64,000 bases of DNA from assembly GCA_030730425.1 (NCBI GenBank), contig JANQVH010000046.1:62001-126000 (forward strand), given 5' to 3'. The DNA comes from Candidatus Nanopelagicaceae bacterium (GTDB taxonomy: Bacteria; Actinomycetota; Actinomycetes; Nanopelagicales; Nanopelagicaceae). The notes beneath the pieces are model-generated. The model ran no database searches and had not been told where the DNA came from. It saw only the letters and a list, made by a program, of their open reading frames with translations. How positions within the stretch are numbered: position 1 is the stretch's first letter; every line of letters starts with the position of its first letter. This document shows, in pieces, positions 5,963 to 53,572 of the stretch. The position numbers and the translations under genes are program-made.

Positions 5963-5968
5963 TAGGAT
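5963..5968 (+). promoter_or_regulatory. Putative -10 box for leaderless cysD mRNA
   Basis: TAGGAT lies exactly six bases before the cysD ATG (5975). This matches the TANNNT-N6-start pattern seen at many genes here and would place transcription initiation at or next to the start codon. It implies that the sulfate genes can be transcribed separately from the upstream two-component pair. No convincing -35 was assigned. Confidence 0.55.
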
Positions 5969-5974
5969 TTCCTA

Positions 5975-6880
5975 ATGCGCAGCTCCCCTGAGATTCTCGA
6001 ATCTTTAGAAAATGAGTCCATTGAAATAATAAGAGAGACTGCAGCTAGTTTTAGAAACCCTGTCTTTTTATATTCAATCGGCAAAGACTCATCGGTAGTT
6101 CTTCATTTAATTAGGAAAGCATTCTTTCCTGCTCAGGTTCCCTTTCCGATGCTACATATCGACACCACCTGGAAATTCCGCGAGATGATTGAATTTAGAG
6201 ATCAGATGGCAGATAAGTATCAGATCAAGTTAATGACTCACACCAACCAAGATGGCGTCAGAGATGGAGTTACTCCCTTCTCAACTACCGCCTCTGAATA
6301 CACCAGAGTGATGAAGACTGTTGCGCTACGCCAAGCCTTAGATTCCTATGGATTTGATGCTGCCATCGGTGGTTCGCGCCGCGATGAGGAGAAAAGTAGA
6401 GCGAAAGAGAGATTATTTAGCGTTAGAGAAGCTGGTCATCGCTGGGATCCAAGAGCGCAGCGACCAGAGCTCTGGAGAACCTATAACCCAAGAATCAGGC
6501 CAGATCAAAGCATGCGGGTATTTCCAATTTCAGATTGGACCGAACTTGATATCTGGAGCTATATCCAGCTTCACAATATCCCGGTAAATCCTCTCTATTT
6601 CGCTAAAGAACGCCCTGTTGTAAAGCGCGGCGAGCAATTAATTATGATCGATGATGATCGCTATCCATTAATTAATAATGAAAAGCCTGAGATGAAGAAG
6701 ATTAGATTTAGAACTCTCGGCTGCTACCCATTAACTGCCGGCGTTGAATCAGATGCCATCACACTTGAGCAGGTAGTAGCAGAGGTGATGGCTGTGAAAT
6801 TAAGTGAGCGAGCCACACGCCTAATTGATGGCGATAAGGAAGATTCAATGGAGAAGAAAAAGAAAGAGGGATATTTCTAA
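5975..6880 (+). CDS. cysD: Sulfate adenylyltransferase subunit 2 (CysD)
   Basis: Catalytic subunit of ATP sulfurylase, forming adenosine 5'-phosphosulfate (APS) from sulfate and ATP. The 301-residue protein has the PP-loop SIGKDSSV (about 34-41), the family motifs [10 protein letters not shown]-like (as [13 protein letters not shown]) and [15 protein letters not shown], and the typical C-terminus EKKKKEGYF. Its stop codon overlaps the cysNC start by one base (TAATG), which suggests coupled translation of the two subunits of the GTP-dependent enzyme. Length and motifs are normal. Confidence 0.96.
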
Positions 6881-8715
6881 TGTCCTCACTTTCTTCAAAG
6901 CCTATAGTTCGCCTCCTTACCTGCGGCAGCGTTGATGATGGAAAGAGCACTTTAATTGGGCGTCTATTAGTTGAAACAGATTCTGTTCCTCATGACACAG
7001 TCTCATCAGCTAGAAGCACAAGGAGAGCTGGATCAATAATTCCAGCAGGTGAAATTGATTTTAGTTTATTAACAGATGGCCTTGAGGCAGAGCGTGAACA
7101 AGGAATAACTATTGATGTGGCATATCGCTCTATGTCACTTCTTGATGGAAGACGATTAATAATTGCCGATGCTCCAGGTCATGAGCAGTACACAAGGAAT
7201 ATGGCAGTTGCAGCATCAAGGGCCGATATTGCCCTTGTTTTGGTAGATGCTACAAGAGGGGTAAGGGTTCAAACTCTTCGCCACTTAACTATTTGCGCGC
7301 TCATGGGAGTTGAGAAAGTAATAGTTGTTATCAATAAATTAGATGCAAGTAACTTTGATCAGAAGATTTATGACGACCTTGTCCAAGAGTTAACGCCTAC
7401 TATAAAACGTTTAGCTATTGAGGATGCTTGTTTTATTCCGGTAAGCGCGCTTGAAGGCGATAATGTGGTTTATAAGACTCCAAAAACTTCGTGGCATACC
7501 GGTGGATCTCTCTTGGAAGAGATTCAGAATTGGCGTGAAAAGCCTAGAAATAATGAGCATAAAAGAATGGGTGTACAACTCATTTCAAGAGCTGAGAACT
7601 TCCGCGGCCTTTCAGGCACAGTGAGCCAGGGAGAATTTAAAGTTGGAGATGAGGTTGTAATTCTTCCTAGTGCTAAAAAAGCAAAAATCTCAAGGCTTGC
7701 CACCTTCGATGGCGATATCCAAAGCGCGCCCAGTGGCAAAGCGATAACTATGGTCTTGACCCCAGAGGTTGATGCAACTCGCGGCGACTTTATTGAAGGT
7801 GCTGATAATTTCACAATCCCTGCTGATCGCTTCAGCGCAAACTTGGTCTGGTTAGGTGAAGAAGAGTTGATTCACTCTCGCTCTTACTACCTCATAAATG
7901 GCTCAGCAATGGTCGCTGCGACGATAACAACTATCCGCCACCGAATCGATATTAATAATGGAGAGCATGAATCAACTAGAACTCTTGCAATGAATGAGAT
8001 TGGCTTAGTGGAGATTGCTACTGATTCCCCTATCGCACTTACTAAGTACTCGGAGAACCGAATATCAGGTAATTTTGTAATTGTAGATCGAGTAACTCTT
8101 AACACTATTGGTGCTGGAATGGTAGTTCACACACTAAGAAGAGCATCTAATATCACTAAGCATGATTATGAAATAAACAAAGCTACTCGCTCTAAACAAA
8201 AGGGCCAGAGAGCTAAAGTAATTTGGATGACTGGGCTATCTGGCTCTGGAAAATCAACTATCGCTGATGCTCTTGAGAAAGAATTGTTTGCCAAAGGCAT
8301 TCATAGCTATGTATTAGATGGCGATAATCTAAGGCTCGGGCTAAATAAAGATCTTGGTTTCACAAAAGAAGATAGGGCAGAAAATGTCCGCCGCGTTGCA
8401 GAGGTTGGTAAATTAATGGTTGATGCCGGTCTTGTTGTAATTGTCGCCCTAGTAAGTCCATTTAAAGTAGATAGAGATCATGCAAGAGAGATTTTTGATT
8501 CCGGTGAATTTATTGAAGTCTGGGTTAAGACACCTTCTGAAATATGCGCTCAAAGAGATCCAAAGGGGCTCTATAAGAAGGCTAGAGAAGGTAACCTGCC
8601 TAATCTAACTGGAGTGGGTCAAGATTATGAGGCGCCAACATCGGCTGAGTTAATCCTTGATGGCACTACAGATATCGCTTTAAATGTAGAAAAACTAATG
8701 AAAGAAGTTCTGTGA
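6880..8715 (+). CDS. cysNC: Bifunctional CysNC: ATP sulfurylase GTPase subunit fused to APS kinase
   Basis: Residues about 8-430 form an EF-Tu-like GTPase (G1 GSVDDGKST, DAPGHEQYTRN, NKLD) that drives APS synthesis with CysD. Residues about 440-611 form an APS kinase with P-loop GLSGSGKST at about 451, DGDNLR and the FxEVWVKTP-like (FIEVWVKTP) signature, making PAPS. The fusion (611 residues) is common in actinobacteria and proteobacteria. Its stop codon overlaps the next gene (GTGA). No PAPS reductase or sulfite reductase is encoded near it, so whether PAPS is used for cysteine synthesis or for sulfation cannot be decided from this window. Confidence 0.96.
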   Translation: MSSLSSKPIVRLLTCGSVDDGKSTLIGRLLVETDSVPHDTVSSARSTRRAGSIIPAGEIDFSLLTDGLEAEREQGITIDVAYRSMSLLDGRRLIIADAPGHEQYTRNMAVAASRADIALVLVDATRGVRVQTLRHLTICALMGVEKVIVVINKLDASNFDQKIYDDLVQELTPTIKRLAIEDACFIPVSALEGDNVVYKTPKTSWHTGGSLLEEIQNWREKPRNNEHKRMGVQLISRAENFRGLSGTVSQGEFKVGDEVVILPSAKKAKISRLATFDGDIQSAPSGKAITMVLTPEVDATRGDFIEGADNFTIPADRFSANLVWLGEEELIHSRSYYLINGSAMVAATITTIRHRIDINNGEHESTRTLAMNEIGLVEIATDSPIALTKYSENRISGNFVIVDRVTLNTIGAGMVVHTLRRASNITKHDYEINKATRSKQKGQRAKVIWMTGLSGSGKSTIADALEKELFAKGIHSYVLDGDNLRLGLNKDLGFTKEDRAENVRRVAEVGKLMVDAGLVVIVALVSPFKVDRDHAREIFDSGEFIEVWVKTPSEICAQRDPKGLYKKAREGNLPNLTGVGQDYEAPTSAELILDGTTDIALNVEKLMKEVL

Positions 8716-9467
8716 ACTGGCTCTTTTTTGCACTCGCTGGATCGATCGCTCAATTAATAGATGGCGCACTTGGTATGGGATTTGGCCTTACCAGCTCCAC
8801 TCTACTTCTAACTCTAGGAACATCGGCGGCAGTTGCATCAGCAGCTGTTCATTTTGCAGAGATTGGAACCACTCTGGCATCTGGTGTTTCACATTGGCAC
8901 CGTGAAAACGTTGACTTTGAAATCTTAAAACGCCTAGCAATTCCTGGAGGAATTGGTGCATTTGCTGGAGCAACTTTCTTATCCTCTATTGATCTAAGTG
9001 GCGGAACAATATTTATCTCAACAATTCTTCTCCTTCTCGGATTTGTTCTTTTATATCGAAATGTCTTTCAAACAAATATCAAACCAAATATGGCCGAACT
9101 TAATAACCCTAAATATCTGACATTTCTAGGGGCTACCGGTGGTTTTATAGATGCATCCGGTGGCGGTGGTTGGGGACCAATAGTTACTCCAACTCTGCTT
9201 GCCACTACAGAGCATGAACCAAGAAAAATCATTGGCACTGTAAGCGCAGCTGAATTTATCGTGGCAGTCTGTGCCAGCATTGGTTTTCTTGCCAATATTT
9301 CACGTATTGATATTGATTGGTCAGCAGTTGGCGGCCTTGCTCTAGGTGGAGTTCTTATGGCGCCAGTTGCAGCAAAATTAGTCTCTGTTGTTCCTAGAAG
9401 ACCACTTGGTATCGCAGTAGCTACTGCAATCATTGTTATCAATGGAATTCGCCTACTTACTACCTGA
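8712..9467 (+). CDS. TauE/SafE-family membrane permease
   Basis: Integral membrane protein of 251 residues with about seven to eight hydrophobic helices and the family signature GALGMGFG near the N-terminus (DGALGMGFGLTSS) plus a repeat-related GGFIDASGGGGWGP near residue 145. Members move sulfite, sulfonates or related anions. The GTG start overlaps the cysNC stop by four bases, so translation is likely coupled with sulfate activation. The context suggests a sulfur compound as substrate; in Corynebacterium a TauE-type protein (CysZ) is linked to sulfate uptake, so import of sulfate is a reasonable inference, not shown by the sequence. Confidence 0.85.
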   Translation: MNWLFFALAGSIAQLIDGALGMGFGLTSSTLLLTLGTSAAVASAAVHFAEIGTTLASGVSHWHRENVDFEILKRLAIPGGIGAFAGATFLSSIDLSGGTIFISTILLLLGFVLLYRNVFQTNIKPNMAELNNPKYLTFLGATGGFIDASGGGGWGPIVTPTLLATTEHEPRKIIGTVSAAEFIVAVCASIGFLANISRIDIDWSAVGGLALGGVLMAPVAAKLVSVVPRRPLGIAVATAIIVINGIRLLTT

Positions 9468-9517
9468 TTCTCTGTAAATTCTCAGCCTATTAGGCTCAAT
9501 TGTTCATATTAGGGTTT

Positions 9518-9547
9518 TTGACCTTAAGTTTGATGAGCAGTTATGGT
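9518..9547 (+). promoter_or_regulatory. Promoter of the DapB-like gene, leaderless type
   Basis: A -35-like TTGACC (9518-9523), an 18-base spacer, a -10 TATGGT (9542-9547) and then exactly six bases to the ATG at 9554. This is the clearest complete promoter of the leaderless type in the window. It argues for the 9554 start over the in-frame TTG at 9500 or ATG at 9533, since the promoter would lie inside those longer frames. Confidence 0.65.
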
Positions 9548-9553
9548 CTTTCC

Positions 9554-10462
9554 ATGACAATAACTTCAGAATGGCTCCTTGAACCAAAGAAAGTTATACG
9601 AGTAGGCCTGGTTGGTTTTGGCAAGACAGGTAAAGCTGTAGCAACCGTTCTGCTTAAAGATCCCAAGGTCCGCCTTGAGTGGGTGGTTCGCAAGAGCCAT
9701 AAATTAGAGCACCGCTCAGTTCCTGAATTCCTAGGCATTGATTCTGGGGAGCCTGGAACTATTTACTCCAGCTCAGAGTTCTCTGCCGCTGAGCTATTGG
9801 ACAAGTATCCAGTGGATGCCATTATCGATTTCTCCTCAGAAGATGGGGTCGACTTCTATGGCCAGGCTGCGGCTGACAAGGGAGTTGCAATTGTTAGCGC
9901 TATATCGGCTTATCCCAATAGTCAGATCAGGCTCCTAAAGAAACTTAGCGCTCACACTAAGGTTCTCTGGTCGCCGAATATAACTCTTGGGATTAATTTC
10001 ATGATTCTGGCAGCTAAGACTTTGAAGTTCATTGTTCCATTTACCGATATCGAGATAGTTGAAGAGCACTTTAAATTAAAATCAGAGACCTCAGGAACTG
10101 CTATACAGATTTCTACAGCTCTTGAGCTTGAACCTGAGAATATCAAGAGTATCCGCGCTGGAGGCATAATCGGTGTTCATGAGATTATCTTTGGATTTCC
10201 TTTTCAGACTGTGCGCTTAAAGCATGAGTCGATATCACGAGAAGCTTTTGGAGATGGTGCAAAGTTTGCAGTTGAAGAATTAGTAAAACAAGAAAATGGG
10301 TTCTACTCGATGGAGCAGATGCTTGGTCCCTACTTCATCGACTCAAATAAGGAATTTATGCCTAAATCCCAAGCCCCTAAACTCTCACTAGGAAAGAGGG
10401 TTAGCCTCAAGCTTACGCAGGGTTTCAATTCGCTCCTGAATCGGAGGATGGGTGGCAAATAA
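9554..10462 (+). CDS. DapB-like dihydrodipicolinate reductase family protein
   Basis: NAD(P)-binding reductase resembling 4-hydroxy-tetrahydrodipicolinate reductase (lysine and meso-diaminopimelate synthesis). An N-terminal Rossmann fold (VGLVGFGKTGKAV) is followed by a C-terminal domain with IEIVEEHFKLK...SGTA. Aligned with the E. coli motif EAHHRHKxDAPSGTA, the catalytic His and the Lys four residues later are both present and SGTA is kept, but the second His is Phe and the DAP part is replaced. The C-terminus (about the last 40 residues) is a basic extension that overlaps htpX by 75 bases tail to tail. It may be the DapB of this organism or a paralogue with a different imine or enol substrate. 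Confidence 0.72.
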   Translation: MTITSEWLLEPKKVIRVGLVGFGKTGKAVATVLLKDPKVRLEWVVRKSHKLEHRSVPEFLGIDSGEPGTIYSSSEFSAAELLDKYPVDAIIDFSSEDGVDFYGQAAADKGVAIVSAISAYPNSQIRLLKKLSAHTKVLWSPNITLGINFMILAAKTLKFIVPFTDIEIVEEHFKLKSETSGTAIQISTALELEPENIKSIRAGGIIGVHEIIFGFPFQTVRLKHESISREAFGDGAKFAVEELVKQENGFYSMEQMLGPYFIDSNKEFMPKSQAPKLSLGKRVSLKLTQGFNSLLNRRMGGK

Positions 10463-11287
10463 TTTAGAAGCAGCTGAGGCATCAAGTGGAGATTCGATAT
10501 AAAAGTGGGCAACAGCGCTTGATCGAGCTTGCACTACCGTGTTATCTCTAGCTAATACTTCAAGTGCTGATCTAAGCCCGGCTGGGTTTCTAGTAAATGA
10601 AACAGCTGTGGCATCAGCAAGTGATTCTCTCCGGCGAGATATTGCTGACTTCAATAGCGTTGCTGCTATTGGAGCGAGAATCAAAGGGATAATTGCAAGA
10701 AATAAAGGCATCTGATTTTGATGGCTTCTACTTCTTCCTCCGCCAAACCAGAGCATCCGCATCAAAATATCAGATATCAAAGCAATGACTCCTGCAGTTG
10801 TTGCAGCAACTGCTGAAACTAAAGTATCGCGATTAGCAACATGGGCCATCTCATGGGCTGTTACTCCTTGTAATTCATCGCGATCCATTGACTCTAGTAA
10901 GCCAGTAGTAAAAGCAATGAGAGCATTCTCAGGATTTCGCCCAGTTGCAAAGGCATTAGGAGCTGGATCATTAACAATTGCTACCTTAGGCATAGGAAGT
11001 CCAGAGGCAATTACAACTTCATTAACTACATTAAATAGATTTGGATTATCTTCATAGCGAATTACTTTTGCTCTAGTCATTTTTAACACTAATTTATCTG
11101 AGGCAAAATATGATCCCCAGACTGAGATCAAAGTTATTAGAACAGCAAGAGGTATTACTCCAGCCCCAGTTCCACCAAAGAAGGTGATTGCAACATAGGA
11201 GATACTCCAGACCAAAACTGCCATGAAGAAGAGCAGATAGAAGGTCTTTCGTTTATTTACTGATTCAAGCGCGCGAAAATCTGCCAT
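10388..11287 (-). CDS. htpX: HtpX-like M48 zinc metalloprotease
   Basis: Membrane protease for quality control of damaged membrane proteins. The 299-residue protein has hydrophobic helices at about 15-38 and 42-62, the zinc motif HEMAH at 145-149, two more membrane segments around 158-180 and 192-215 (LFLAIIPLILAPIAATLL), and a third zinc-ligand region RRRESLADA. Length and plan are those of the HtpX family. It lies four bases after lemA, the classic lemA-htpX pairing. Its 3' end overlaps the convergent DapB-like gene by 75 bases. Confidence 0.93.
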   Translation of the reverse strand: MADFRALESVNKRKTFYLLFFMAVLVWSISYVAITFFGGTGAGVIPLAVLITLISVWGSYFASDKLVLKMTRAKVIRYEDNPNLFNVVNEVVIASGLPMPKVAIVNDPAPNAFATGRNPENALIAFTTGLLESMDRDELQGVTAHEMAHVANRDTLVSAVAATTAGVIALISDILMRMLWFGGGRSRSHQNQMPLFLAIIPLILAPIAATLLKSAISRRRESLADATAVSFTRNPAGLRSALEVLARDNTVVQARSSAVAHFYIESPLDASAASKLFATHPPIQERIETLRKLEANPLS

Positions 11288-11291
11288 TTAC

Positions 11292-11846
11292 CTAGAACTT
11301 AACATTTGGAGCGTTTCGAACTGCTGGGTCATCAACTTCATAAAACTCTCTCTCCCCGACCTTAGCAAGGCCAACAAATAGAGATGATGGAATCGTTTTA
11401 ACTGCAGTATTAAGGCTTCTCACAGTGTCGTTATAGAACTGGCGAGCAAAGGAGACTTTATTTTCTGTAGTTGCCAGCTCTTCTTGAAGCTGGAGGAAGT
11501 TAGTAGAAGATTTCAAATCTGGATAAGCCTCAGCAACAGCTAATAATCCACGCAGGGCGTTAGTTAGAGCGCCATCTGCCGCAGCAACTGCTGGAAGAGT
11601 TGATGCAGTAGTTGATGCCGCTCTTGCCTGGACAACTCGTTCAAATACTTCTCGCTCTTGTGTGGCATATCCTTTTACTGTCTCTACAAGATTTGGGATT
11701 AGATCTGCTCTTCGCTTTAACTGAACTTCAATCTGTGAAAAGCCTTCATCAACTTGGATATTAAGGCGAATCAATTTGTTATATTGAATAATGGCAAAGA
11801 CAACAAGGAAGAGAATTAGAGCTAGCGCAATTACAGTTATATCCAT
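11292..11846 (-). CDS. lemA: LemA family protein
   Basis: A 184-residue protein with one N-terminal membrane anchor (about 3-22) and a long helical domain with the family pattern QVDEGFSQIEVQLKRRADLIPNLVETV and FARQFYNDTVRSLN. LemA proteins are membrane-anchored helical bundles of uncertain biochemical role, often next to M48 proteases; here htpX follows in the same direction after four bases. A TAGATT hexamer lies six bases before the ATG, suggesting a leaderless lemA-htpX transcript. Confidence 0.9.
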   Translation of the reverse strand: MDITVIALALILFLVVFAIIQYNKLIRLNIQVDEGFSQIEVQLKRRADLIPNLVETVKGYATQEREVFERVVQARAASTTASTLPAVAAADGALTNALRGLLAVAEAYPDLKSSTNFLQLQEELATTENKVSFARQFYNDTVRSLNTAVKTIPSSLFVGLAKVGEREFYEVDDPAVRNAPNVKF

Positions 11847-11852
11847 GGCTTA

Positions 11853-11858
11853 AATCTA
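11853..11858 (-). promoter_or_regulatory. Putative -10 box for leaderless lemA mRNA
   Basis: Read on the minus strand, TAGATT is followed by six bases and the lemA ATG (11846), matching the TANNNT-N6-start pattern found repeatedly in this window. Confidence 0.55.
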
Positions 11859-11883
11859 CTTAATTTCCTAAAACCTTGCTTGC

Positions 11884-12462
11884 CTACTTAATTTCAGTTT
11901 TATAGAAGTTAAGCCAAGATTTGCTTGGAGTCGGGCCGCGCTGGCCTTGATATCTTGAGCCATAAACTGCAGAGCCATAAGGGTGCTCGGCGGCAGATGA
12001 GAGTTTAATGAGACATAACTGACCAATCTTCATTCCTGGATATAGCTTGACTGGAAGGTTTGCCACATTTGAAAGCTCAAGGGTTATATGACCACTAAAT
12101 CCTGGATCGATAAAGCCTGCAGTTGAGTGGGTAAGTAAACCAAGGCGCCCTAAAGAAGATTTTCCTTCAAGTCTTCCGGCAATGTCATCTGGAAGAGTGA
12201 TTACTTCATAGGTAGAAGCTAGAACAAATTCACCTGGGTGGAGGATAAAGAAGTCATCAGGGGCAACAGCAACTTCGCGAGTTAGCTCTGATTGCTCTAG
12301 CGATGGGTCAATCACCTCATACTTATGGTTTTCAAAGACTCTAAAGAATCTATCGAGCCGAACATCAACACTTGATGGCTGAATCATCTTCGCCTCGAAG
12401 GGCTCAACCTGAACTCGGCCTGCCTTTATCTCTGCTGCAATATCGCGATCACTTAGTAGCAT
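11884..12462 (-). CDS. dcd: dCTP deaminase (possibly bifunctional dCTP deaminase/dUTPase)
   Basis: Deaminates dCTP to supply dUTP/dUMP for dTTP synthesis. From the ATG at 12462 the protein is 192 residues, starting [12 protein letters not shown] as is normal for Dcd. Motifs include [33 protein letters not shown] and the C-terminal region [12 protein letters not shown]. An upstream in-frame ATG at 12504 would start inside the tRNA-Gly gene and is rejected; TAGCAT seven bases before 12462 supports the shorter start. Some actinobacterial Dcd proteins make dUMP directly; this cannot be decided here. The dcd/tRNA-Gly neighbourhood also occurs in mycobacteria. Confidence 0.94.
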
Positions 12463-12469: not shown

Positions 12470-12475
12470 ATGCTA
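12470..12475 (-). promoter_or_regulatory. Putative -10 box of dcd
   Basis: TAGCAT on the minus strand, seven bases upstream of the dcd ATG. The corresponding -35 region must fall inside the divergent tRNA-Gly gene (12481 onward), so the two transcription units share sequence. Confidence 0.5.
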
Positions 12476-12551: not shown

Positions 12552-12578
12552 CGTCGTATTGCGTAAGTTACTCACCAG

Positions 12579-12584
12579 TAGCAT
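12579..12584 (+). promoter_or_regulatory. Putative -10 box of the acyl-CoA dehydrogenase gene
   Basis: TAGCAT ends nine bases before the ATG at 12594, and no Shine-Dalgarno sequence is visible. It fits a promoter giving a leaderless or nearly leaderless mRNA, located between tRNA-Gly and the gene. Confidence 0.45.
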
Positions 12585-14428: not shown

Positions 14429-14434
14429 TAAAGT
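14429..14434 (+). promoter_or_regulatory. Putative -10 box for leaderless DMT transporter mRNA
   Basis: TAAAGT lies exactly six bases before the GTG at 14441, within the 17-base gap after the acyl-CoA dehydrogenase stop. No ribosome binding site is visible, which supports leaderless expression and the GTG start. Confidence 0.5.
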
Positions 14435-22575: not shown

Positions 22576-22581
22576 AGCCTA
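22576..22581 (-). promoter_or_regulatory. Putative -10 box for leaderless PBP1 mRNA
   Basis: TAGGCT on the minus strand followed by six bases and the ATG at 22569, in the 27-base gap behind the DUF5318 gene. Confidence 0.55.
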
Positions 22582-22995: not shown

Positions 22996-23001
22996 CGGAG
23001 A

Positions 23002-23029
23002 AGGATAAAGCCAAAAACTTAACTACGCT
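23002..23029. promoter_or_regulatory. Divergent leaderless promoter pair, DUF5318 and MFS genes
   Basis: Within the 40 bases separating two divergent GTG starts, TATCCT (23002-23007 on the minus strand) stands six bases before the GTG at 22995, and TACGCT (23024-23029 on the plus strand) stands six bases before the GTG at 23036. Each -35 region must overlap the other promoter, so polymerase binding could be mutually exclusive. Confidence 0.55.
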
Positions 23030-23035
23030 TGAGAT

Positions 23036-24325: not shown

Positions 24326-25748
24326 CGCTCCACCAATTCATCAACTCTTGCTCTGCTCTCTCTCTTCCAAGAGGGCCATGCTCTAACCTTAATTCCAAGA
24401 GATGTTCGTAGGCTTTACCAACATTTGGGCCGGCTGGGATATTAAGAAGTTTCATAATCTCATTTCCATCAAGATCAGGTCTGATTTTTAATAGCTCTTC
24501 CTGCTCCATTAAAACAGCGATGCGCTCTTCTAGATGATCATAATGGCGCGCTAAAGTCTCGGCTTTCTTCTTGTTTCTAGTTGTGCAGTCAGCTCTAGTT
24601 AGAACATGAAGGTGGGTTAGAAGATCGCCTGCATCTCTAACATATCTTCGCACCGCAGAATCACTCCAAGCTCCATCGCCATAGCCGTGAAAACGTAGAT
24701 GTAGAAAGGTTAATTCGCTAACCGCAGCAACTACATCTTGATCAAAACGAAGCTTTTTTAAGCGCTCTTTAGCCATTCTTGCACCCACTACTTCATGGTG
24801 ATGAAAGGTAACCCCGCCGCCATCAACTAAAGCTTTGGTTTTAGGTTTTCCAATGTCATGAAAGAGGGCAGCTAATCTGACAACAAGATTTGCTCCACCT
24901 AAGCGCTGCTCTAGAGCGATGGCTTGTTCAAAAACTGTCAGCGTATGCTCATAGACATCTTTATGGTGGTGATGTTCATCAACTTCTAGCCTTAGCTTTG
25001 AAATCTCTGGAAGAAACTTATCGCAAAGCCCGCTCTCAACCAGAATATTGATTCCAACGCGTGGGTTATCAGAGAGCACAGTCTTTATAAATTCATCTCT
25101 TATCCGCTCTGCAGAGACTATCTCTAAGCGATCTTTCATCTCGCCCATTGCCTTTAGCGCTGCTTCATCAATTGCAAAACCTAATTGCGAAGCAAAACGA
25201 GCAGCTCTTAGCATTCTTAGTGGATCATCAGAGAATGACATCTCAGGGGTTGCTGGAGTGCGAAGTATTTTCTTAAGTAAATCAGTTACTCCGTTATAGG
25301 GATCGATAAATTCAGGAGTATCCGTTGTTAGCTCTATCGCCATTGCATTGACAGTGAAATCTCGACGGCGCAGATCATCTTCTAAATTGTCGCCAAATTG
25401 AACTTCTGGTTTTCTAGTATCTGCTTCATAGCTATCGGCTCTATAGGTCGTTACTTCAAAAGTTATATCACTGCGCTTTGCTCCAATAGTTCCAAACTTG
25501 ATTCCAACATCCCAAGTCTCATCAGCAAACTTCTTTAATATCTTCTTGCTCTCTTCAGGTTTTGCATCAGTTGTGAAATCTAAATCATTTCCAAGGCGAT
25601 TAAGTAGAGCATCTCGAACTGTTCCACCTACAAGAGCTAGACGAAAACCGGCAGCCTTAAAAGACCCAGCTAATTCAAAGGCTTCTGGGGCGCGCTCTTT
25701 AAGCGTTGCGATTGCGATCTGGCTCGCTGCCGATAGTGGAGTTTCCAT
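24309..25748 (-). CDS. cca: CCA tRNA nucleotidyltransferase
   Basis: Adds or repairs the 3'-CCA of tRNAs; relevant because two tRNA genes here (Gly, Ala) encode no CCA. The head domain has LVGGTVRDALL and the metal ligands of DLDFTTDA; the neck and RNA-binding domain follow; the C-terminal HD domain has LFHDIGKPKT and HHHEVVGARM. The frame is open to 25868, but that would run through the divergent NUDIX start; the ATG at 25748 gives METPLSAAS and has TAACCT eight bases upstream, so 479 residues is preferred. In mycobacteria pcnA likewise neighbours the MutT4-type NUDIX gene. Confidence 0.94.
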   Translation of the reverse strand: METPLSAASQIAIATLKERAPEAFELAGSFKAAGFRLALVGGTVRDALLNRLGNDLDFTTDAKPEESKKILKKFADETWDVGIKFGTIGAKRSDITFEVTTYRADSYEADTRKPEVQFGDNLEDDLRRRDFTVNAMAIELTTDTPEFIDPYNGVTDLLKKILRTPATPEMSFSDDPLRMLRAARFASQLGFAIDEAALKAMGEMKDRLEIVSAERIRDEFIKTVLSDNPRVGINILVESGLCDKFLPEISKLRLEVDEHHHHKDVYEHTLTVFEQAIALEQRLGGANLVVRLAALFHDIGKPKTKALVDGGGVTFHHHEVVGARMAKERLKKLRFDQDVVAAVSELTFLHLRFHGYGDGAWSDSAVRRYVRDAGDLLTHLHVLTRADCTTRNKKKAETLARHYDHLEERIAVLMEQEELLKIRPDLDGNEIMKLLNIPAGPNVGKAYEHLLELRLEHGPLGRERAEQELMNWWSARSQS

Positions 25749-25756
25749 TATGTCTA

Positions 25757-25762
25757 AGGTTA
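25757..25762 (-). promoter_or_regulatory. Putative -10 box of cca
   Basis: TAACCT on the minus strand, eight bases before the ATG at 25748. The gap to the divergent NUDIX start is only 64 bases. Confidence 0.42.
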
Positions 25763-25800
25763 CCGATGCAGGCTTGCCTTCCGTTCTTGGCCATGACGAG

Positions 25801-25806
25801 TAGTCT
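25801..25806 (+). promoter_or_regulatory. Putative -10 box for leaderless NUDIX mRNA
   Basis: TAGTCT followed by six bases and the ATG at 25813. No Shine-Dalgarno is visible. Confidence 0.55.
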
Positions 25807-25812
25807 TGAGCC

Positions 25813-26400: not shown

Positions 26401-27497
26401 AGCGAATACTCCTTGCCTTCTTACTTATCCTGCTTCCAATATCTCCTGCCCAAAGCTCCACTCTGATAACGCTTACTGCGCCAACAAATAAACTTGCCGA
26501 TGGACGTTTTATTAATAATGAACTTGCGCTCTCTATCTCACCTGGCGGTGATTTAGGAAAGGCTTTAGAGATAACTGCCTCTAGTGATCGAACTTGGTTA
26601 ATTGATCCAGCTTTAATTGAAGAGATTGTTGATTTAGTAGATGGTTATATCTATCTTGATCAAGAGGGAGAAGATATTGAAGTGGCCCCCTTTGATCTTG
26701 CTAATGATTGGCTGTTAAAACTTCAATCTTTAACTAGAGATAATCGTGTTGTTGCTATTACCTATGGCGCCCCTTCTCAATCCTTTATGGAGCGACTAGC
26801 CCCAGGTGAGCTCTCTAGATATAACTCTCTTTCAAAGCTTCGCCTTGAATCACTTCTTAATAGAGAAGTCATCGCCCCTGGGAAATCAAGTGTTGAAGGT
26901 GAGCCTGCGCTAGTTGCAAAGAATGCCTATACAGCCTTGCGAAAATCAATCAAAATTACTAATTCGGTGATTACAAGTAAAGATGTGGAAGATCTACGCC
27001 TTGGCCTTGCAAAGACTTTAAATCCAGAGCTATCTAAAGGAAGCGCTTTTTTAATATCTAAAAGCTATAGCGCAGCTATAAAAGAGGCAGACAATAAAGT
27101 TCGCATCTCGCCGGGTAACTACACCATAACTACTAAAAATTATGATCTTCCCGTAACTATTATCAATGACTTCACGCAGCCTGTGAGCCTTGACTTAATT
27201 ATTACCACCACTAATTCCCGAGTATTAGTTGATGATGTTCCAAGAATTACTATTGATGGCCAGTCCCAAGTTCAAATAGAGGTTCCTATAGAGGTAATTG
27301 CATCTGGCGATACCTCACTTCGCCTCCAGCTCTACACGCCTAAGAAAGACTTGATTGGCCTTGAGCAGCGAATCCCACTTCGACTCGCGGTTATTTCCCC
27401 CGTTACCACCTGGTTGACCACTGGGATGGCGATAATTCTTTTACTCGCCGCAATTGTGCAGAGTGTTAGAAGAGTTAAGAGCAGGAGAGGCAAATGA
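26397..27497 (+). CDS. DUF6049-like secreted or membrane-anchored protein
   Basis: A 366-residue protein starting with TTG. It has a signal peptide (residues 1-20, KRILLAFLLILLPISPAQSS) and a C-terminal membrane helix (about 337-357) followed by a short basic tail, so the bulk lies outside the cytoplasm. Between cca/NUDIX and murJ, actinobacteria carry a DUF6049-type protein with the same plan (about 700 residues in mycobacteria), and the assignment rests mainly on this context. This copy is much shorter. A cell-envelope role is plausible; no catalytic motif was recognised. Confidence 0.6.
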   Translation: MKRILLAFLLILLPISPAQSSTLITLTAPTNKLADGRFINNELALSISPGGDLGKALEITASSDRTWLIDPALIEEIVDLVDGYIYLDQEGEDIEVAPFDLANDWLLKLQSLTRDNRVVAITYGAPSQSFMERLAPGELSRYNSLSKLRLESLLNREVIAPGKSSVEGEPALVAKNAYTALRKSIKITNSVITSKDVEDLRLGLAKTLNPELSKGSAFLISKSYSAAIKEADNKVRISPGNYTITTKNYDLPVTIINDFTQPVSLDLIITTTNSRVLVDDVPRITIDGQSQVQIEVPIEVIASGDTSLRLQLYTPKKDLIGLEQRIPLRLAVISPVTTWLTTGMAIILLLAAIVQSVRRVKSRRGK

Positions 27498-29083
27498 GTG
27501 AAGATGCCAATCTAATTAGATCTTCCTCTTTTATGGGCCTTGGAACAATAATTTCAAGAGCTACTGGGTTAATTAGAAATCTTCTCCTTGTTGCAGCACT
27601 TGGAACTGGGTTATTAGGAGATGCTTTTAATGTTGCAAATACCACTCCTAATATTATTTATAACCTTCTTATAGGTGGAGCGCTATCGGCTGTATTTGTT
27701 CCCTTAATTGTTCAATCTTTTAGGCAGGAAGATGGCGGCAGCGCATATATCAGCCGCCTACTTTCGCTAATTGCATCAGCGCTACTCTTTATAACAATTG
27801 CAGCGATGTTGCTAGCTCCATTGTTAATTTCACTCTATGCCCCAACTTTCTCTGGGCGCTCTAGAGATGTAACCCTTGCTTTTGCTCTCTACTGTCTGCC
27901 GCAAATTCTCTTCTACGGCCTATATGGAATTTTGGGCCAAGTTGCCAATGCCAAAGAAAAATTTGGACCAATGATGTGGGCTCCAATAGCTAATAATCTC
28001 CTCGTTATTGTCCTCTTCTCCTACTTCATCTCAGTAACAGATGAGATCTCACTAGAAACAATAAGTGATTCACAAATTGCTCTACTGGGCCTAGGAAGCA
28101 CAGTAGGAATTGCGCTACAAGCGCTAATTCTTATTCCGACTCTAAAGAAATCTGGGTTAAAACTCTCTTTCCGTAGGGATTGGCGGGGAGTTGGCCTTGA
28201 TAAGGCTATGAGGCTTGCTAGTTGGGCATTTATATTTGTTCTTGTTTCACAGATTGGTTTTCTTATAACGGTAAATCTTGCAACTAGAGCCGCTGTTTTA
28301 GCACAAGAGCAAGGTATTGATTATGGAGTTGGTTATACCCCATATGCCAATGCTTACTTGGTTATGTTGCTACCGCATTCAATAGTCACTATCTCAATTG
28401 TCACAGCTCTACTTCCTGGTTTATCCAAGTTAGCATTTGATAAGAAGTTATCTGAAGTTAGAGATCAATTGAGTAAAGCGCTTCGATTAACTGCCATACT
28501 AACTATCCCTGCATCACTTTTCTTCTTCTTCTTTGCAGAGGAAATTGCTAGCGCAATCTTCTTTGGTATTTCAGAGCAATCTGCAGAATATATTGGAAGA
28601 GTTCTTGCTGCTATGTCTCTTGGTTTAATCCCGCTTTCAATAAATTTAGTATTAATTAGAGGGCTAAATGCCTTTGAAAATACTAAATATCAGGTGATTT
28701 CAAATTTAGTAATTAACCTAGTTGCTTTAACAATTAGTATTTGGGCTTTCTTAAATCTAGATGTTGTGGATATAACGGTAGGACTTGGAGCCGCTCTTGC
28801 AATTAGTTATTGGGTGGGAATTGTTTGCACCTACTATTTATTGCGTAGATATTCAGGGCCACTTAACATCACCTCTTTATTACTCTTTCATAGCAAGGTT
28901 GCTCTTATAGCGCTCGTATCTTGCTTAGCCATCTCAAGCTTGCTATCAAGGCTTGATTTGGAGGGGAATCTTTTCTCATTACTTATTGTTCTCTTAAGCA
29001 CATTTGCCCTCTATCTTGCGATAGGGCGAGTGTTAAAGGTTTCAGAGATTAGCCAAGTATTAAAAGTTCTATTACGAAGGTAG
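27494..29083 (+). CDS. murJ: MurJ/MviN lipid II flippase
   Basis: Flips lipid II across the membrane for peptidoglycan synthesis. The 529-residue protein has about 14 hydrophobic helices and the family N-terminal motif GTIISRATGLIRN with the essential basic residues. The mycobacterial C-terminal pseudokinase extension is absent. Its ATG overlaps the previous stop by four bases (ATGA). It sits upstream of trxB-trxA-cwlM as in other actinobacteria; CwlM also acts on cell-wall synthesis in mycobacteria. Confidence 0.93.
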   Translation: MSEDANLIRSSSFMGLGTIISRATGLIRNLLLVAALGTGLLGDAFNVANTTPNIIYNLLIGGALSAVFVPLIVQSFRQEDGGSAYISRLLSLIASALLFITIAAMLLAPLLISLYAPTFSGRSRDVTLAFALYCLPQILFYGLYGILGQVANAKEKFGPMMWAPIANNLLVIVLFSYFISVTDEISLETISDSQIALLGLGSTVGIALQALILIPTLKKSGLKLSFRRDWRGVGLDKAMRLASWAFIFVLVSQIGFLITVNLATRAAVLAQEQGIDYGVGYTPYANAYLVMLLPHSIVTISIVTALLPGLSKLAFDKKLSEVRDQLSKALRLTAILTIPASLFFFFFAEEIASAIFFGISEQSAEYIGRVLAAMSLGLIPLSINLVLIRGLNAFENTKYQVISNLVINLVALTISIWAFLNLDVVDITVGLGAALAISYWVGIVCTYYLLRRYSGPLNITSLLLFHSKVALIALVSCLAISSLLSRLDLEGNLFSLLIVLLSTFALYLAIGRVLKVSEISQVLKVLLRR

Positions 29084-29086
29084 GGT
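29081..29086 (+). promoter_or_regulatory. Putative -10 box for leaderless trxB mRNA, made from the murJ stop
   Basis: TAGGGT lies six bases before the GTG at 29093; its first three bases are the murJ stop codon TAG. It would give trxB its own leaderless transcript within the cluster. Confidence 0.5.
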
Positions 29087-39192: not shown

Positions 39193-39514
39193 TCTCTGAA
39201 ATATCAGAGGTTGGGGATAACCTGTGGATATGTGTGGATAACCTGTTGGTAAAGGTGGGGTTTGAAAAGACCTTATTTTTCCAAGTGGTTTGTTTTAAGA
39301 GTTACTCACAGTTTTTACACAGAGAAGAGGTGGTTTAAATGAAGGGTAATGCGGCCTTGAACAGGGCTTTTATTTCTTTTCCACAGTTAAACCGCCTGGT
39401 TACTACTACTAACTTTATAGATAAGAAATCTCATCTTAGAGAACAGATCTTGATAAGAAGCTTTAAATCAAACCAACTATCTAAAGTAAAGACGAAAGAG
39501 TTAGGCTGAAGATT
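39193..39514. other. Candidate oriC between dnaA and dnaN
   Basis: A 322-base gap. DnaA-box-like elements on the same strand: TGGGGATAA (39212-39220, one mismatch), TGTGGATAT (39223-39231, one mismatch), TGTGGATAA (39233-39241, perfect), spaced 10-11 bases, then TTTTCCACA (39377-39385, one mismatch in the other orientation). The right part is AT-rich with A/T runs. In Streptomyces and Mycobacterium oriC lies between dnaA and dnaN, which supports this place. A small hairpin CTCTGA-AATA-TCAGAG (39194-39209) directly follows the dnaA stop. TAGGCT (39502-39507) seven bases before the dnaN ATG may be its -10 box. Confidence 0.8.
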
Positions 39515-50138: not shown

Positions 50139-50242
50139 GCGCCTTAGGGTAGGTGGGCAGGGGCCAATCTGCAGGCAAGGGCTCTATGCACAGGGGTGGA
50201 TAACCTGTGGAGAATTACACAGATGTAATTAATAAAGAGGTA
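50139..50242. promoter_or_regulatory. Gap upstream of the Fe-S reductase with DnaA-box-like pair
   Basis: GGTGGATAA (50195-50203) and TGTGGAGAA (50206-50214) each differ by one base from TGTGGATAA and are spaced 11 bases, like the phased boxes in the dnaA-dnaN gap. The minus-strand -10 TACCCT (50146-50151) for the Fe-S reductase lies in the same gap. DnaA binding is inferred. Confidence 0.45.
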
Positions 50243-50503
50243 TTAGCGCCAGCGAGTAGCTAGGGAGAAGCCCACTCCGATGAAGGCAAAGCCCACAACC
50301 ATGTTCCAAGCCCCGATATTAGGTATTGGGTAGAGGGTCTGGGAGACATAGAAAATTACTATCCAAAATAGCCCTACTAAGAATGCGCCAATCATTGTTG
50401 GGGCGAGCCAGGCTGGGCTCTCTATTTCAGCAGGATCTCGCTCAGCAAGAAGTATCTCTGGGCGGTTATCTTTCTTCTTCTTACGCAGTCTGGATTTAGG
50501 CAT
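50243..50503 (-). CDS. crgA: Cell division protein CrgA
   Basis: An 86-residue septum-formation regulator with a basic N-terminus (PKSRLRKKKK), a short linker (SPAWLAPTMIGAFLVG), two membrane helices (about 34-55 and 63-80) and a final RWR. CrgA recruits divisome proteins in actinobacteria. It lies between the Fe-S reductase and pabA/trpG, comparable to Rv0011c. TATCCT seven bases before the ATG (50511-50516) suggests a leaderless mRNA. Confidence 0.93.
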   Translation of the reverse strand: MPKSRLRKKKKDNRPEILLAERDPAEIESPAWLAPTMIGAFLVGLFWIVIFYVSQTLYPIPNIGAWNMVVGFAFIGVGFSLATRWR

Positions 50504-50510
50504 AGGCGTC

Positions 50511-50516
50511 AGGATA
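50511..50516 (-). promoter_or_regulatory. Putative -10 box for crgA
   Basis: TATCCT on the minus strand followed by seven bases and the crgA ATG at 50503, in the 30-base gap divergent to pabA/trpG. Confidence 0.52.
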
Positions 50517-50533
50517 CAGGAGAGGATGAGGCC

Positions 50534-51160
50534 ATGGGAACAAGGATCTTGGTGGTTGATAACTATGACTCATTTGTCTTTAACCTCGTTCAATACCTCC
50601 AACAACTAGGGGCCGAGTGCACGGTAGTAAGAAATGATGAAGTTAGCGCAAGCCTTGCCGATCAATATGACGGGGTCTTAATCTCCCCAGGTCCTGGAAC
50701 CCCTGAAGAAGCTGGCATCTCAGTAGAGATGATTAAGTATGCAGCTCAAATTAAAAAGCCTTTACTTGGAGTTTGCCTTGGACATCAAGGAATTGGAGTT
50801 GCTTATGGAGCAACTGTTAATCGAGCGCCAGAGCTACTTCATGGAAAGACATCGGTAATTACTCATAACAACTCTGGAGTTCTAAAAGATATCCCTAATA
50901 ACTTCACCGCCACTCGCTATCACTCACTTGCGATAGGTGAGGAGAGCTTGCCGGAGGAGATTGAAGTAACTGCTAGAAGTGAGAGCGGTTTAGTAATGGC
51001 TATTAGACATAAAACTCTTCCGATCCACGGAGTGCAATTTCATCCAGAGTCAGTTCTTACCGAACATGGTTATCAGATGTTAGGTAATTGGTTAGTTGAG
51101 TGCGGTGATAGCGGAGCAAGAAAGAGATCTGAAGGTCTCTCTCCAGTTGTTTCTCGCTAG
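50534..51160 (+). CDS. pabA: Glutamine amidotransferase, anthranilate/aminodeoxychorismate synthase component II
   Basis: Supplies ammonia from glutamine for anthranilate or aminodeoxychorismate synthesis. The 208-residue class I GATase has the nucleophile Cys in GVCLGHQG, and His and Glu in HGVQFHPESV. It sits where M. tuberculosis trpG (Rv0013) lies, between crgA and pknB; such proteins may serve tryptophan, folate or both, since the partner component I is not in the window. Its last four bases overlap the pknB stop (CTAG). Confidence 0.9.
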   Translation: MGTRILVVDNYDSFVFNLVQYLQQLGAECTVVRNDEVSASLADQYDGVLISPGPGTPEEAGISVEMIKYAAQIKKPLLGVCLGHQGIGVAYGATVNRAPELLHGKTSVITHNNSGVLKDIPNNFTATRYHSLAIGEESLPEEIEVTARSESGLVMAIRHKTLPIHGVQFHPESVLTEHGYQMLGNWLVECGDSGARKRSEGLSPVVSR

Positions 51161-52722
51161 CCTTGAGTCTTATTAATAGTAATTGTTACTGAAGAGCCAA
51201 TTAATTTAACTTCTCCAGCGTTTGGAGCCTGCGCTAAAACACTTCCGATTACTTGATTTGCATCATATGCCTCAACAATTTTTACTAAGAATCCTGCTTG
51301 GGTAAGAATTGTTCTAGCTTCAATTTCATTAAGCCCCACTAAAGATGGCACAGAGATATTTCCACTAGCGATCTCTAGAACTACCCCAGTACCTGCTTCA
51401 ACTGTGCTTCCTGGCTCTGGAGTTATCTTCAAAACAATTCCAGGTTCTTGCTCTGAATCAACAGCGATAGTTCTACTAACTCTTAAACCTGCAGCAGTTA
51501 AGGCTGCTCTAACCTCTTCAAGAGGCTTGCCCAATAAACCAGTAGGAACAATGGCATCTCCTGGTCCATCCGAAATCGTCAGCGTCACAGCCGATCCCTC
51601 AGAGACGCGGATTGTGGCAAGTGGTAACTGGCTAGCGACTCGGTCTCTAGGAATTCTAGGATCTGGCGCTCTCTGGATAGTGATAGTTAGCCCTGATAAT
51701 TCCTGACGCGCCTGAGCCTCTGTTAAACCAACAACATTAGGAAGAACCCTTGTTGCTGCGCTCTGGTTTGGATTAAAGATGAAGTAACTAACGCCGCCAA
51801 CAAGAAGTACTAAAGCGATAGATAGGGCAGCGATTCTACTTCGCGCCTTTTCTTTTCTTAATTGTTTTGGAATCTGAGTAGTAATACCTTCGCCTTTATT
51901 TAACTTCCTTAGATCTTTAAGCATTGCATTAGCGCTTTGGTATCTCTCATTTGCATCTTTAGCAAGAGCGATACTAAAGAATGCATTTAAAGCAGGATCA
52001 AGACTTTCTTGAATTTCAGTAATTGGGATAAGTGGAGCTGAGACATGTTGATAAGCAATAGCAACTGGGGTATCACCAGTGAAGGGAGGTCTTCCTGCTA
52101 ATAGTTCATAGAGCAAACATCCAACAGAGTAAAGATCACTTCTAGCATCTGCTTGAGTTCCAGTGGCTTGTTCTGGCGAGAGATATTGCGCTGTTCCAAT
52201 TATGTTCCAGGTGCTAGTCATAGTAGCTCCGGTATCAGCAAGAGCTCTAGCGATACCAAAATCCATCACCTTCACATCATTGTTATCTGTGATCATGATG
52301 TTTCCTGGCTTTATATCGCGATGAATAATTCCATTCTTATGTGAGTATTGCAGGGCAATCAAAATACCTTCAACTATTTCAACAGCGCGATTTAGCGCAA
52401 AACGCTCACCCTTATTGACTATCTCTCGTAGGGTTTTGCCCTCTACAAACTCCATAACAATGTATGGCATAGCCCCACTAGGGCTATCTTCTTTCCCAGA
52501 GTCATAAACAGAGACAATCCCTGGATGATTTAGGGCGGCAACAGATAAGGCTTCTTTGTTAAACCTAGTAACAAATGATGGGTCTCTAGCTAAATCACTT
52601 CTTAATATCTTGATAGCAACTTGGCGATTAAGTCTTACATCTTGAGCTAGATAGACATCTGCCATCCCGCCAGTGCCAATCATTGCTCCTAATTCATATC
52701 GCTCGCCTAATATTTTTTTCAT
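51157..52722 (-). CDS. pknB: PknB-type Ser/Thr protein kinase with three PASTA domains
   Basis: Receptor kinase controlling cell wall and division. The 521-residue protein has the kinase domain (about 8-270: GTGGMADVYLA, HRDIKPGNIM, DFGIARA), a membrane helix (about 297-316), and three PASTA repeats (about 325-390, 391-456, 457-521). In mycobacteria PknB has four PASTA domains. Its ATG overlaps the pstP stop by four bases. The genes pknA, pbpA and rodA that lie between pstP and pknB in other actinobacteria are missing. Confidence 0.95.
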   Translation of the reverse strand: MKKILGERYELGAMIGTGGMADVYLAQDVRLNRQVAIKILRSDLARDPSFVTRFNKEALSVAALNHPGIVSVYDSGKEDSPSGAMPYIVMEFVEGKTLREIVNKGERFALNRAVEIVEGILIALQYSHKNGIIHRDIKPGNIMITDNNDVKVMDFGIARALADTGATMTSTWNIIGTAQYLSPEQATGTQADARSDLYSVGCLLYELLAGRPPFTGDTPVAIAYQHVSAPLIPITEIQESLDPALNAFFSIALAKDANERYQSANAMLKDLRKLNKGEGITTQIPKQLRKEKARSRIAALSIALVLLVGGVSYFIFNPNQSAATRVLPNVVGLTEAQARQELSGLTITIQRAPDPRIPRDRVASQLPLATIRVSEGSAVTLTISDGPGDAIVPTGLLGKPLEEVRAALTAAGLRVSRTIAVDSEQEPGIVLKITPEPGSTVEAGTGVVLEIASGNISVPSLVGLNEIEARTILTQAGFLVKIVEAYDANQVIGSVLAQAPNAGEVKLIGSSVTITINKTQG

Positions 52723-53498
52723 AGCGCAGCGCCAAAGCCCTGAGTTTTTATATTAGCCTTACTCTCTCCAACTTCGGCCACTATCACCGTGACATTATCT
52801 GGGGCTCCCGCTTTATATGTAAGGTCAATTAATGAATTCACAGCACTTGTTAAGTCTTGTTGCATCGCTTTAGCAATCTGCGCCTCATCTAGAACAGCGG
52901 TAAGTCCATCGCTACAAAGTAGGTATCTATCGCCTTTTAATACCGGATAGGCAAGAAGAATAGGAGAGAGATTCTCTTTACCCATTAGCGCTTGGGTTAG
53001 AAAAGATCTCTGTGGGTGATCTGCAATCTCATCTGGGCTAAGTCTTCCTTGATCTATTAACTCTTGAACGACAGTGTGATCATGGCTTAACTGCTCTATT
53101 TTCTTGCCTCGCAAGCGATAAGCCCTTGAATCTCCAAGGTGTAATAAAAGTAGGTTGCTATCAAAGAGAGCTATTGAGGTAAGAGTTGTTCCCATTCCTA
53201 CTAGCTCAGGGCGCGCAGCTCCTATTTCAGCAATTGCTGCATCCATACTTTCAATAGAGGAGCTAAGAAGATCTTCCCTAGATTCATTATCTAGCTCTGG
53301 ATTTTCAAGGGTAGGTAGAAGTTGAATCAACTTTTCAATTACAGTCTTTGATGCAATCTCACCACCAACATAACCACCCATGCCATCTGCTACTGCAAGA
53401 AGTGATTGCGAGACTAAAGCTGAATCTTCATTACCTTGGCGATGCAGGCCAACTTCAGATCGCCAGGCAATATCAGAGAAGTTCAGTTTTGCCGCCAT
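52719..53498 (-). CDS. pstP: PP2C-family Ser/Thr phosphatase PstP
   Basis: Metal-dependent phosphatase reversing PknB phosphorylation. The ATG at 53498 gives 259 residues beginning AAKLNFSDIAWRSEVGLHRQGNEDS; motifs VADGMGGYVGGEIAS (DG, GG metal ligands), LHLGDSRAYRLR, LLCSDGLT and GAPDNVTVIV are complete. The frame opens further to 53594, but this would overlap the divergent pheA region and is rejected. No C-terminal membrane helix is visible, unlike mycobacterial PstP, so it appears cytoplasmic. TAGGCT lies ten bases upstream. Confidence 0.92.
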   Translation of the reverse strand: MAAKLNFSDIAWRSEVGLHRQGNEDSALVSQSLLAVADGMGGYVGGEIASKTVIEKLIQLLPTLENPELDNESREDLLSSSIESMDAAIAEIGAARPELVGMGTTLTSIALFDSNLLLLHLGDSRAYRLRGKKIEQLSHDHTVVQELIDQGRLSPDEIADHPQRSFLTQALMGKENLSPILLAYPVLKGDRYLLCSDGLTAVLDEAQIAKAMQQDLTSAVNSLIDLTYKAGAPDNVTVIVAEVGESKANIKTQGFGAAL

Positions 53499-53566
53499 AA
53501 TATTGCCAAGCCTAACGCGCAAATCGCTATTGATAAAAGCGTATGCGCCCAAGATGGCCCTACGAG

Positions 53567-53572
53567 TATCCT
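53567..53572 (+). promoter_or_regulatory. Putative -10 box for leaderless pheA mRNA
   Basis: TATCCT followed by six bases and the GTG at 53579, supporting this start over the upstream ATG at 53543. Confidence 0.55.

Follow-up and report, generated by a model that had tools for sequence, protein, structure and literature searches.

In the genome of a Nanopelagicaceae bacterium, a TANNNT hexamer stands at a short, preferred distance before the start codon of many genes, and we consider it very probable that these hexamers are SigA-type -10 elements giving leaderless mRNAs. The DNA under study is a stretch of 64,000 nucleotides, hereafter the window (bases 62001-126000 of contig 46; genome of 1.17 Mb in 54 contigs; 43% guanine plus cytosine, GC), and its source is, judging from the sequence, an acI-type freshwater actinobacterium (Nanopelagicaceae). 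About one-fifth of the genes appear, from the placement of the motif, to have a promoter directly before the start codon. That transcription begins at the codon, that SigA is used and that translation is leaderless are predictions drawn from these data and from analogy with the work on mycobacteria and corynebacteria. Leaderless starts would probably also compress the genome in this family: doubly leaderless divergent pairs would share one symmetric -10 element (TANNNTA, or ANNNTANNNT sharing TA), the whole 17-25 bp region between the two start codons would be a single bidirectional promoter conserved among genera, and the stop codon of one gene would serve at the same time in the -10 of the gene that follows.

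An earlier note on this DNA had listed sixteen genes with TANNNT six to nine bases before the start, ten of them at exactly six, and all sixteen are present at these distances (Table 1). With the spacer defined as the bases between the end of the hexamer and the start codon, ten genes have spacer 6, four spacer 7, one spacer 8 and one spacer 9. A scan of 64 open reading frames (ORFs) of the window at spacers 5-10 recovers the same sixteen and few others, and gives no hit for grpE, dnaJ, sdhA and rpsR, the operon-internal genes from which the motif had been said to be absent. The extra hits are htpX (spacer 8), a PP2C-type gene (spacer 10), an internal ATG of gyrA (spacer 9), two TTG codons of the ORF at 61899 (spacers 10 and 7) and the second ATG of the Fe-S reductase gene (same hexamer, spacer 10). 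The chance frequency of about one in 50 given in the note was too high: we measured one TANNNT in 93-96 positions (0.0104-0.0108 per strand). About 2.7 chance hits at spacers 6-9 would be expected for the 64 window starts, and 16 are seen.

The count was extended to 232 genes of the same genome, i.e. the window plus 19 further stretches (275 kb), and to three other genomes of the family. Genes were called with a simple codon-bias caller written for this analysis. Where several starts were possible the one bearing the motif was favoured, and control spacers were run under the same rule. In the window's own genome, TANNNT is found at spacer 6 in 35 and at spacer 7 in 17 of the 232 genes, the other spacers averaging 4-6. 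The three other genomes give 35 and 18 of 172, 26 and 12 of 177, and 36 and 14 of 177, respectively, and the background in the four genomes is 3-6 genes per spacer. The sharp genome-wide peak at spacers 6-7 anticipated in the earlier note is therefore seen in all four genomes. In Escherichia coli there is no spacer-6 peak (spacers 6 and 7: 5 and 9 of 126 genes, background 3-4), and under two of the gene-calling rules no excess over spacers 5-9 was found.

The starts that follow the motif differ from the others. The pool comprises 758 genes from the four family genomes: 193 with TANNNT at spacer 6 or 7 and 565 without. A pyrimidine at -1 is found in 148 of the 193 versus 258 of the 565 (Fisher p 4e-14), a TTG start in 4 versus 85 (Fisher p 9e-8), and Shine-Dalgarno (SD) tetramers, depleted and still present, in 16 versus 184 (Fisher p 2e-12). 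Of the 132 start codons at spacer 6, 107 are ATG, 25 GTG and none TTG, a split close to that of the leaderless mRNAs of Corynebacterium glutamicum, reported as about 79% AUG and 21% GUG (PMC3890552); at spacer 7, 4 of 61 are TTG. The -1 pyrimidine precedes most genes of both spacer classes and the predicted +1 is the purine of the start codon, a combination that has the features of an initiator. In Mycobacterium tuberculosis, Cortes et al. reported TANNNT, a favoured purine start and C at -1 (PMC3898074). Shell et al. reported that in mycobacteria a 5'-terminal ATG or GTG is necessary and sufficient, TTG being a poor initiator (PMC4633059). The genetic context is also informative. The motif precedes 95 of 188 divergent genes and 6 of 148 overlapping tandem genes, the latter near background, a pattern that indicates a promoter and not a ribosome site. 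Tandem genes separated by short gaps carry it in 36 of 148 cases (0-19 bases) and 28 of 104 cases (20-59 bases). An intact anti-SD sequence closes the 16S rRNA in two genomes of the family, so that SD-led initiation can operate alongside.

Orthologues were sought in up to 16 genera and the motif was counted at spacers 5-9. Rows were excluded when identity was below 40%, when the alignment began after residue 12, when sequences were at least 99% identical or had a duplicate upstream sequence, or when the nearest start codon was more than five codons from the aligned start (cysD 1, DMT 1, PBP1 3, MFS 6, cca 4, NUDIX 1, trxB 2; among contrast genes, cysN 2, gyrA 7, recF 2, rpsF 1). For 15 genes pooled, the motif is kept in 268 of 369 orthologues, versus 32 of 278 orthologues of the 13 contrast genes (cysN, trxA, rpsF, gyrA, pknB and others). 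No orthologue of the contrast genes murJ and sdhA was present among the loci compared, nor of the DapB-like gene in this broad count. The motif is found in all orthologues of NUDIX (25/25), crgA (11/11) and the Fe-S reductase (11/11), and in most of DMT (31/32), DUF5318 (29/33, spacers 6-9), MFS (21/25), PBP1 (17/23) and acyl-CoA dehydrogenase (24/33, at spacer 9 in 18 of the 33). The note had held that the motif fixes four starts. Orthologues carry it for dcd at 12462 (26/26), pheA at 53579 (8/8, all at spacer 6) and cca at 25748 (19/23, all at spacers 7-9, with 16 of the 23 at spacers 8-9). For the DapB-like gene at 9554, two of three orthologues start elsewhere and carry the hexamer at spacer 6 before their own, shifted, start codon. 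In the alignments of five genes, the three fixed letters stay and the neighbouring bases vary. An SD tetramer is found in 54 of the 101 orthologues without the motif versus 26 of the 268 with it. The dnaN gene is a particular case. Its motif is restricted to the window's ten closest relatives (77-99% identity, the others being at most 71%), and an SD tetramer precedes 34 of the 45 orthologues that lack it. The difference maps as one change on a FastTree phylogeny of GyrB with 56 rows (support 73). As indicated by this distribution, the leaderless motif of dnaN is specific to the lineage of the window's clade.

The window has two divergent pairs with the motif on each side. Both sides match in 21 of 25 distinct orthologous intergenic regions for DUF5318/MFS (median gap 43 bp) and in 19 of 22 for cca/NUDIX (gaps 23-112 bp), the window's own being included. 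In the window the two hexamers of each pair are separate and do not overlap; in one relative the cca/NUDIX gap is 23 bp and the hexamers overlap. In the four genomes the motif is found on both sides at spacers 6-8 in 6 of 27, 10 of 21, 3 of 20 and 9 of 23 divergent pairs, with 0-0.25 per genome at control spacers. Over all family loci compared, counting pairs with identical first residues once, 88 of 236 distinct pairs and 28 of 85 ortholog clusters are both-sided, ten control spacer triples giving 0-3. Eighteen of these 28 clusters are single pairs with no orthologue among the loci compared, and a wrong start choice gives two of the 88 pairs a negative gap. For 112 of the 176 starts in the 88 pairs, no further start codon lies between the start and the preceding in-frame stop; the rest have an upstream alternative or an open frame. 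Counting the motif at spacer 6 or 7, the divergent pairs of the four genomes have a median gap of 43.5 bp with two motif-bearing ends, 86 bp with one and 205 bp with none (22, 51 and 21 pairs, respectively).

The start-to-start gaps of the both-sided clusters have medians of 18, 18, 18, 22, 24, 24, 25, 26, 30 bp and upward. Opposing hexamers overlap in 39 of the 88 pairs and in 8 of the 85 ortholog clusters, with start codons as near as 17-25 bp. Two such pairs are found in many genera. Between metF and a polyprenyl-diphosphate-synthase-like gene, 16 of 19 family intergenic regions have hexamers sharing TA with start codons 23-25 bp apart, and the other three are not both-sided. Between birA and a carboxyltransferase gene, 13 of 23 regions have the motif on both sides and 10 do not. 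Ten of these 13 are exactly 18 bp long, a single heptamer TANNNTA serving both strands. The partner of birA is accD/mmdA-like, its matches being below the models' cut-offs. As both RNAs are predicted to be leaderless, the shared -10 and the two discriminators would make up the whole intergenic region. The window's own genome has a comparable site at L003:8279-8296 (C46:8279-8296), where start codons 18 bp apart flank the heptamer TATCTTA, which reads TANNNT on both strands; the flanking genes are presumably of Sua5/YrdC type (minus strand) and SIMPL-like (plus strand). At tandem genes, the TA of the -10 is at the same time part of the stop codon of the upstream gene in 16 of 87 motif-bearing cases from the four family genomes. 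For tandem pairs with a 9-base gap this holds in 11 of 12, a figure to be read with the preference for motif-bearing starts in mind. In the window, the TAG of the trxB hexamer (29081-29086) is the stop codon of the gene at 27494-29083, which we take to be murJ-like.

According to the mechanism that we propose, RNA polymerase would open the DNA at the -10 hexamer, and the first RNA base, 6-7 bases further downstream, would be the A or G of the start codon. The mRNA would then have neither a 5' leader nor a Shine-Dalgarno site, and the AUG or GUG at its 5' end would be bound by ribosomes directly. Leaderless genes would coexist with SD-led ones: SD tetramers stand before other genes, and the anti-SD is intact in the two 16S rRNA sequences. 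As some 12 bases ahead of the start codon would suffice for such a promoter, it would fit tiny intergenic gaps and could sit on the preceding stop codon, and one gap could serve two divergent genes, overlapping -10 hexamers being the extreme. RbpA and CarD aid -10-only promoters in actinobacteria.

Widespread leaderless transcription, as put forward in the earlier note, is favoured by the spacer peak, the depletion of SD tetramers, the near-absence of TTG, the -1 pyrimidine, the genetic context and the conservation. Three other explanations have to be weighed. A rather unlikely one is that the hexamer is a promoter and that many of the genes have very short leaders of 1-5 bases instead of none, as could be suggested by the spacers 8-9 of most cca orthologues, the spacer 9 of acyl-CoA dehydrogenase and the range seen for DUF5318. 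Moreover, starts within 5 bp were classed as leaderless by Cortes 2013 (PMC3898074). However, the pooled peak lies exactly at 6, then at 7, and the base at -1 is mostly a pyrimidine in both classes, which places the initiating purine on the start codon. For the genes with spacer 8-9 (cca and acyl-CoA dehydrogenase) a leader of 1-3 bases is the more likely (2-3 bases for acyl-CoA dehydrogenase).

It is highly improbable that TANNNT is a translation signal, i.e. an AT-rich landing site for ribosomes, even though its distance to the start codon is fixed, SD sequences are avoided and the motif is scarcer at wide-gap tandem genes than a pure promoter signal predicts. Such a site would not account for its background level at overlapping, operon-internal genes and its frequency at divergent ones, for hexamers that overlap on opposite strands at divergent pairs, or for the initiator features at -1 and +1. 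The remaining explanation is an artefact of in-frame stops upstream of longest-ORF starts combined with AT composition. At spacer 6 the hexamer lies in the reading frame of the start codon, so that an in-frame TAA or TAG could mimic TARNNT, a point absent from the earlier note, and 6 of the 10 spacer-6 hexamers of the window begin with TAA or TAG. This is nevertheless hardly credible. In-frame control spacers of the window's own genome average 5.8 genes versus 35 at spacer 6, with no equal peaks at spacers 3, 9 and 12 (4, 9 and 4). TAYNNT, which is never a stop, also peaks in this genome (11 at spacer 6 and 6 at spacer 7, background 1.4-1.9), as does TANNNT at the out-of-frame spacer 7, and the motif is conserved across genera.

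Several observations weigh against the leaderless promoter that we favour. The -35 region bias is weak. A bump, confined to spacer 7, is also present in E. coli (9/126, 16/125 and 10/117 genes under the three gene-calling rules). The control spacers run under the start-choice rule lack most of the features, yet spacers 9-10 show a -1 pyrimidine in 23 of 29 genes. The excess is much weaker in the GyrB-region loci of 78 relatives (L022 and L023 left out), with spacers 6 and 7 in 48 and 22 of 767 genes over a background of 17, probably because one operon-rich region is repeated many times. Conservation is partial for lemA (8/20), dnaN (10/55), cysD (11/17) and trxB (17/27), and the contrast genes are not pure, the motif being found for htpX (11/25), carbonic anhydrase (6/14), a cwlM-like gene (7/26), recF (6/61) and serS (2/6). 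Finally, tandem genes with wide gaps have the motif less often, in 11 of 82 at 60-149 bases and 11 of 65 at 150 bases or more, i.e. 22 of 147 at gaps of at least 60 bases versus 64 of 252 at gaps of 0-59. This scarcity suggests that many promoters in wide tandem gaps are leadered.

The earlier note had also supposed that the density of such genes may be unusual. The excess of genes at spacers 5-9 in the four family genomes is 20.1, 25.7, 14.5 and 27.8% (16.2, 26.7, 14.4 and 28.2%, and 18.6, 25.0, 16.3 and 27.9%, under two other gene-calling rules). Published values for 86 actinobacterial genomes have a mean of 19.2% and a range of 2.3-29.8% (Zheng 2011, PMC3160421), and 707 of 2147 mRNAs are reported to be leaderless in C. 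glutamicum (PMC3890552). With 14-28%, the family falls inside the published range, mostly around or above its mean, and the density is thus not that of an outlier. Five other actinobacterial genomes analysed in the same way gave 5.9-11.6%, 5.7-11.9% and 2.0-13.2% under the three rules, but the gene calls of four are doubtful: these have more than 72% GC, and the caller, under the last of the rules, labels 37-41% of their genes divergent. The only trusted one, G045 (69% GC), has an excess of 11.6-13.2%. Divergent genes of the family may be unusually rich in leaderless starts (34-61% versus 27% in G045 under the same rule), a comparison that is suggestive only.

Leaderless genes and bidirectional promoters are each already known. 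The leaderless, TA-led genes described in actinobacteria (Zheng 2011; Cortes 2013; Pfeifer-Sancar 2013; Shell 2015) resemble those reported here by a TANNNT some 12 bases ahead of the start, a scarcity of SD sequences, ATG or GTG with hardly any TTG, C or T at -1, and a share of about a fifth of the genes. What differs here is the low-GC acI-type lineage and the high share among divergent genes. The overlapping, putative -10 hexamers of opposite strands have a counterpart in the bidirectional promoters with a shared symmetric -10 described by Warman, Grainger et al. (PMC12825309, PMC10268837), where the commonest reported distance between divergent starts is 18 bp, distances of 10 and 23 bp being reported as well. 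The predicted start spacings of 19 bp (birA/accD-like) and 24-26 bp (metF/polyprenyl synthase) are close to these geometries. In contrast to those promoters, both RNAs would here be leaderless mRNAs of conserved genes; the window's own divergent pairs differ from them by their separate hexamers. No report on leaderless starts in the Planktophila/Nanopelagic- lineage was found in the literature searched. No doubly leaderless divergent pair was found either in the literature, as judged mostly by titles and PMC4512697, Warman 2021 being outside this scope.

Table 1. Hexamers and divergent intergenic regions of the window (coordinates in the window; names from domain or family models unless stated)
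Feature	Positions	Strand	Gene start	Spacer	Remark
TAGGAT, cysD	5963..5968	+	5975	6	CysD TIGR02039
TATGGT, DapB-like gene	9542..9547	+	9554	6	DapB_N/C domains
TAGATT, "lemA"	11853..11858	-	11846	6	name from the earlier note; unconfirmed, only MamQ below cut-off
TAGCAT, dcd	12470..12475	-	12462	7	DCD domain
TAGCAT, acyl-CoA dehydrogenase	12579..12584	+	12594	9	acyl-CoA dehydrogenase domains
TAAAGT, DMT/EamA transporter	14429..14434	+	14441 (GTG)	6	EamA domain
TAGGCT, PBP1	22576..22581	-	22569	6	best model PBP1A family, below cut-off
TATCCT, DUF5318	23002..23007	-	22995 (GTG)	6	PF17249
40-bp divergent region, putative promoters of both DUF5318 and MFS	22996..23035				motif on each side
TACGCT, MFS	23024..23029	+	23036 (GTG)	6	MFS_1
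64-bp divergent region, putative promoters of both cca and NUDIX	25749..25812				motif on each side
TAACCT, cca	25757..25762	-	25748	8	TIGR02692
TAGTCT, NUDIX gene	25801..25806	+	25813	6	NUDIX domain
TAGGGT, trxB	29081..29086	+	29093 (GTG)	6	TIGR01292
TAGGCT, dnaN	39502..39507	+	39515	7	TIGR00663
TACCCT, Fe-S reductase	50146..50151	-	50138	7	CCG and Fer4 domains
TATCCT, crgA	50511..50516	-	50503	7	CrgA PF06781
TATCCT, pheA	53567..53572	+	53579 (GTG)	6	prephenate dehydratase

Other features of the window and of the loci compared deserve mention. Upstream of the acyl-CoA dehydrogenase gene (about 12565-12584), a GTTACT-N6-GTAGCAT-like stretch running into the -10 is found in most of the 33 orthologues and looks like an operator. 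The gene divergent from pheA, presumably encoding a PP2C-type phosphatase, has a possible start at 53498, preceded by TAGGCT at spacer 10. The window's GyrB is 82-99% identical to that of the best 80 loci kept, whose titles include Nanopelagicaceae, Nanopelagicales and Planktophila. GyrB sequences of acI type within this identity range also stand under record titles such as Clavibacter, Streptomycetaceae, Bifidobacterium breve, Streptomyces griseus and Flavobacteriaceae (L022, L039, L051, L061, L094, L097 and others). Some titles of the list are clearly in error, and these records are probably mislabelled metagenome bins.

The acI actinobacteria are reported to be among the most abundant freshwater bacteria (PMC5301498). 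If at least a fifth of their genes are leaderless, start annotation, expression models and metatranscriptome analyses would need a rule based on the distance from the -10 to the start codon beside the SD rule. The dnaN gene, whose motif is confined to one clade and whose relatives elsewhere are mostly SD-led, would represent a natural switch of initiation mode in an essential gene. The doubly leaderless pairs would constitute a clean natural experiment on how small a divergent promoter can be and still work, and on the competition for one -10. If they indeed share this element, two genes would compete for one polymerase, and their expression would be coupled without any regulator.

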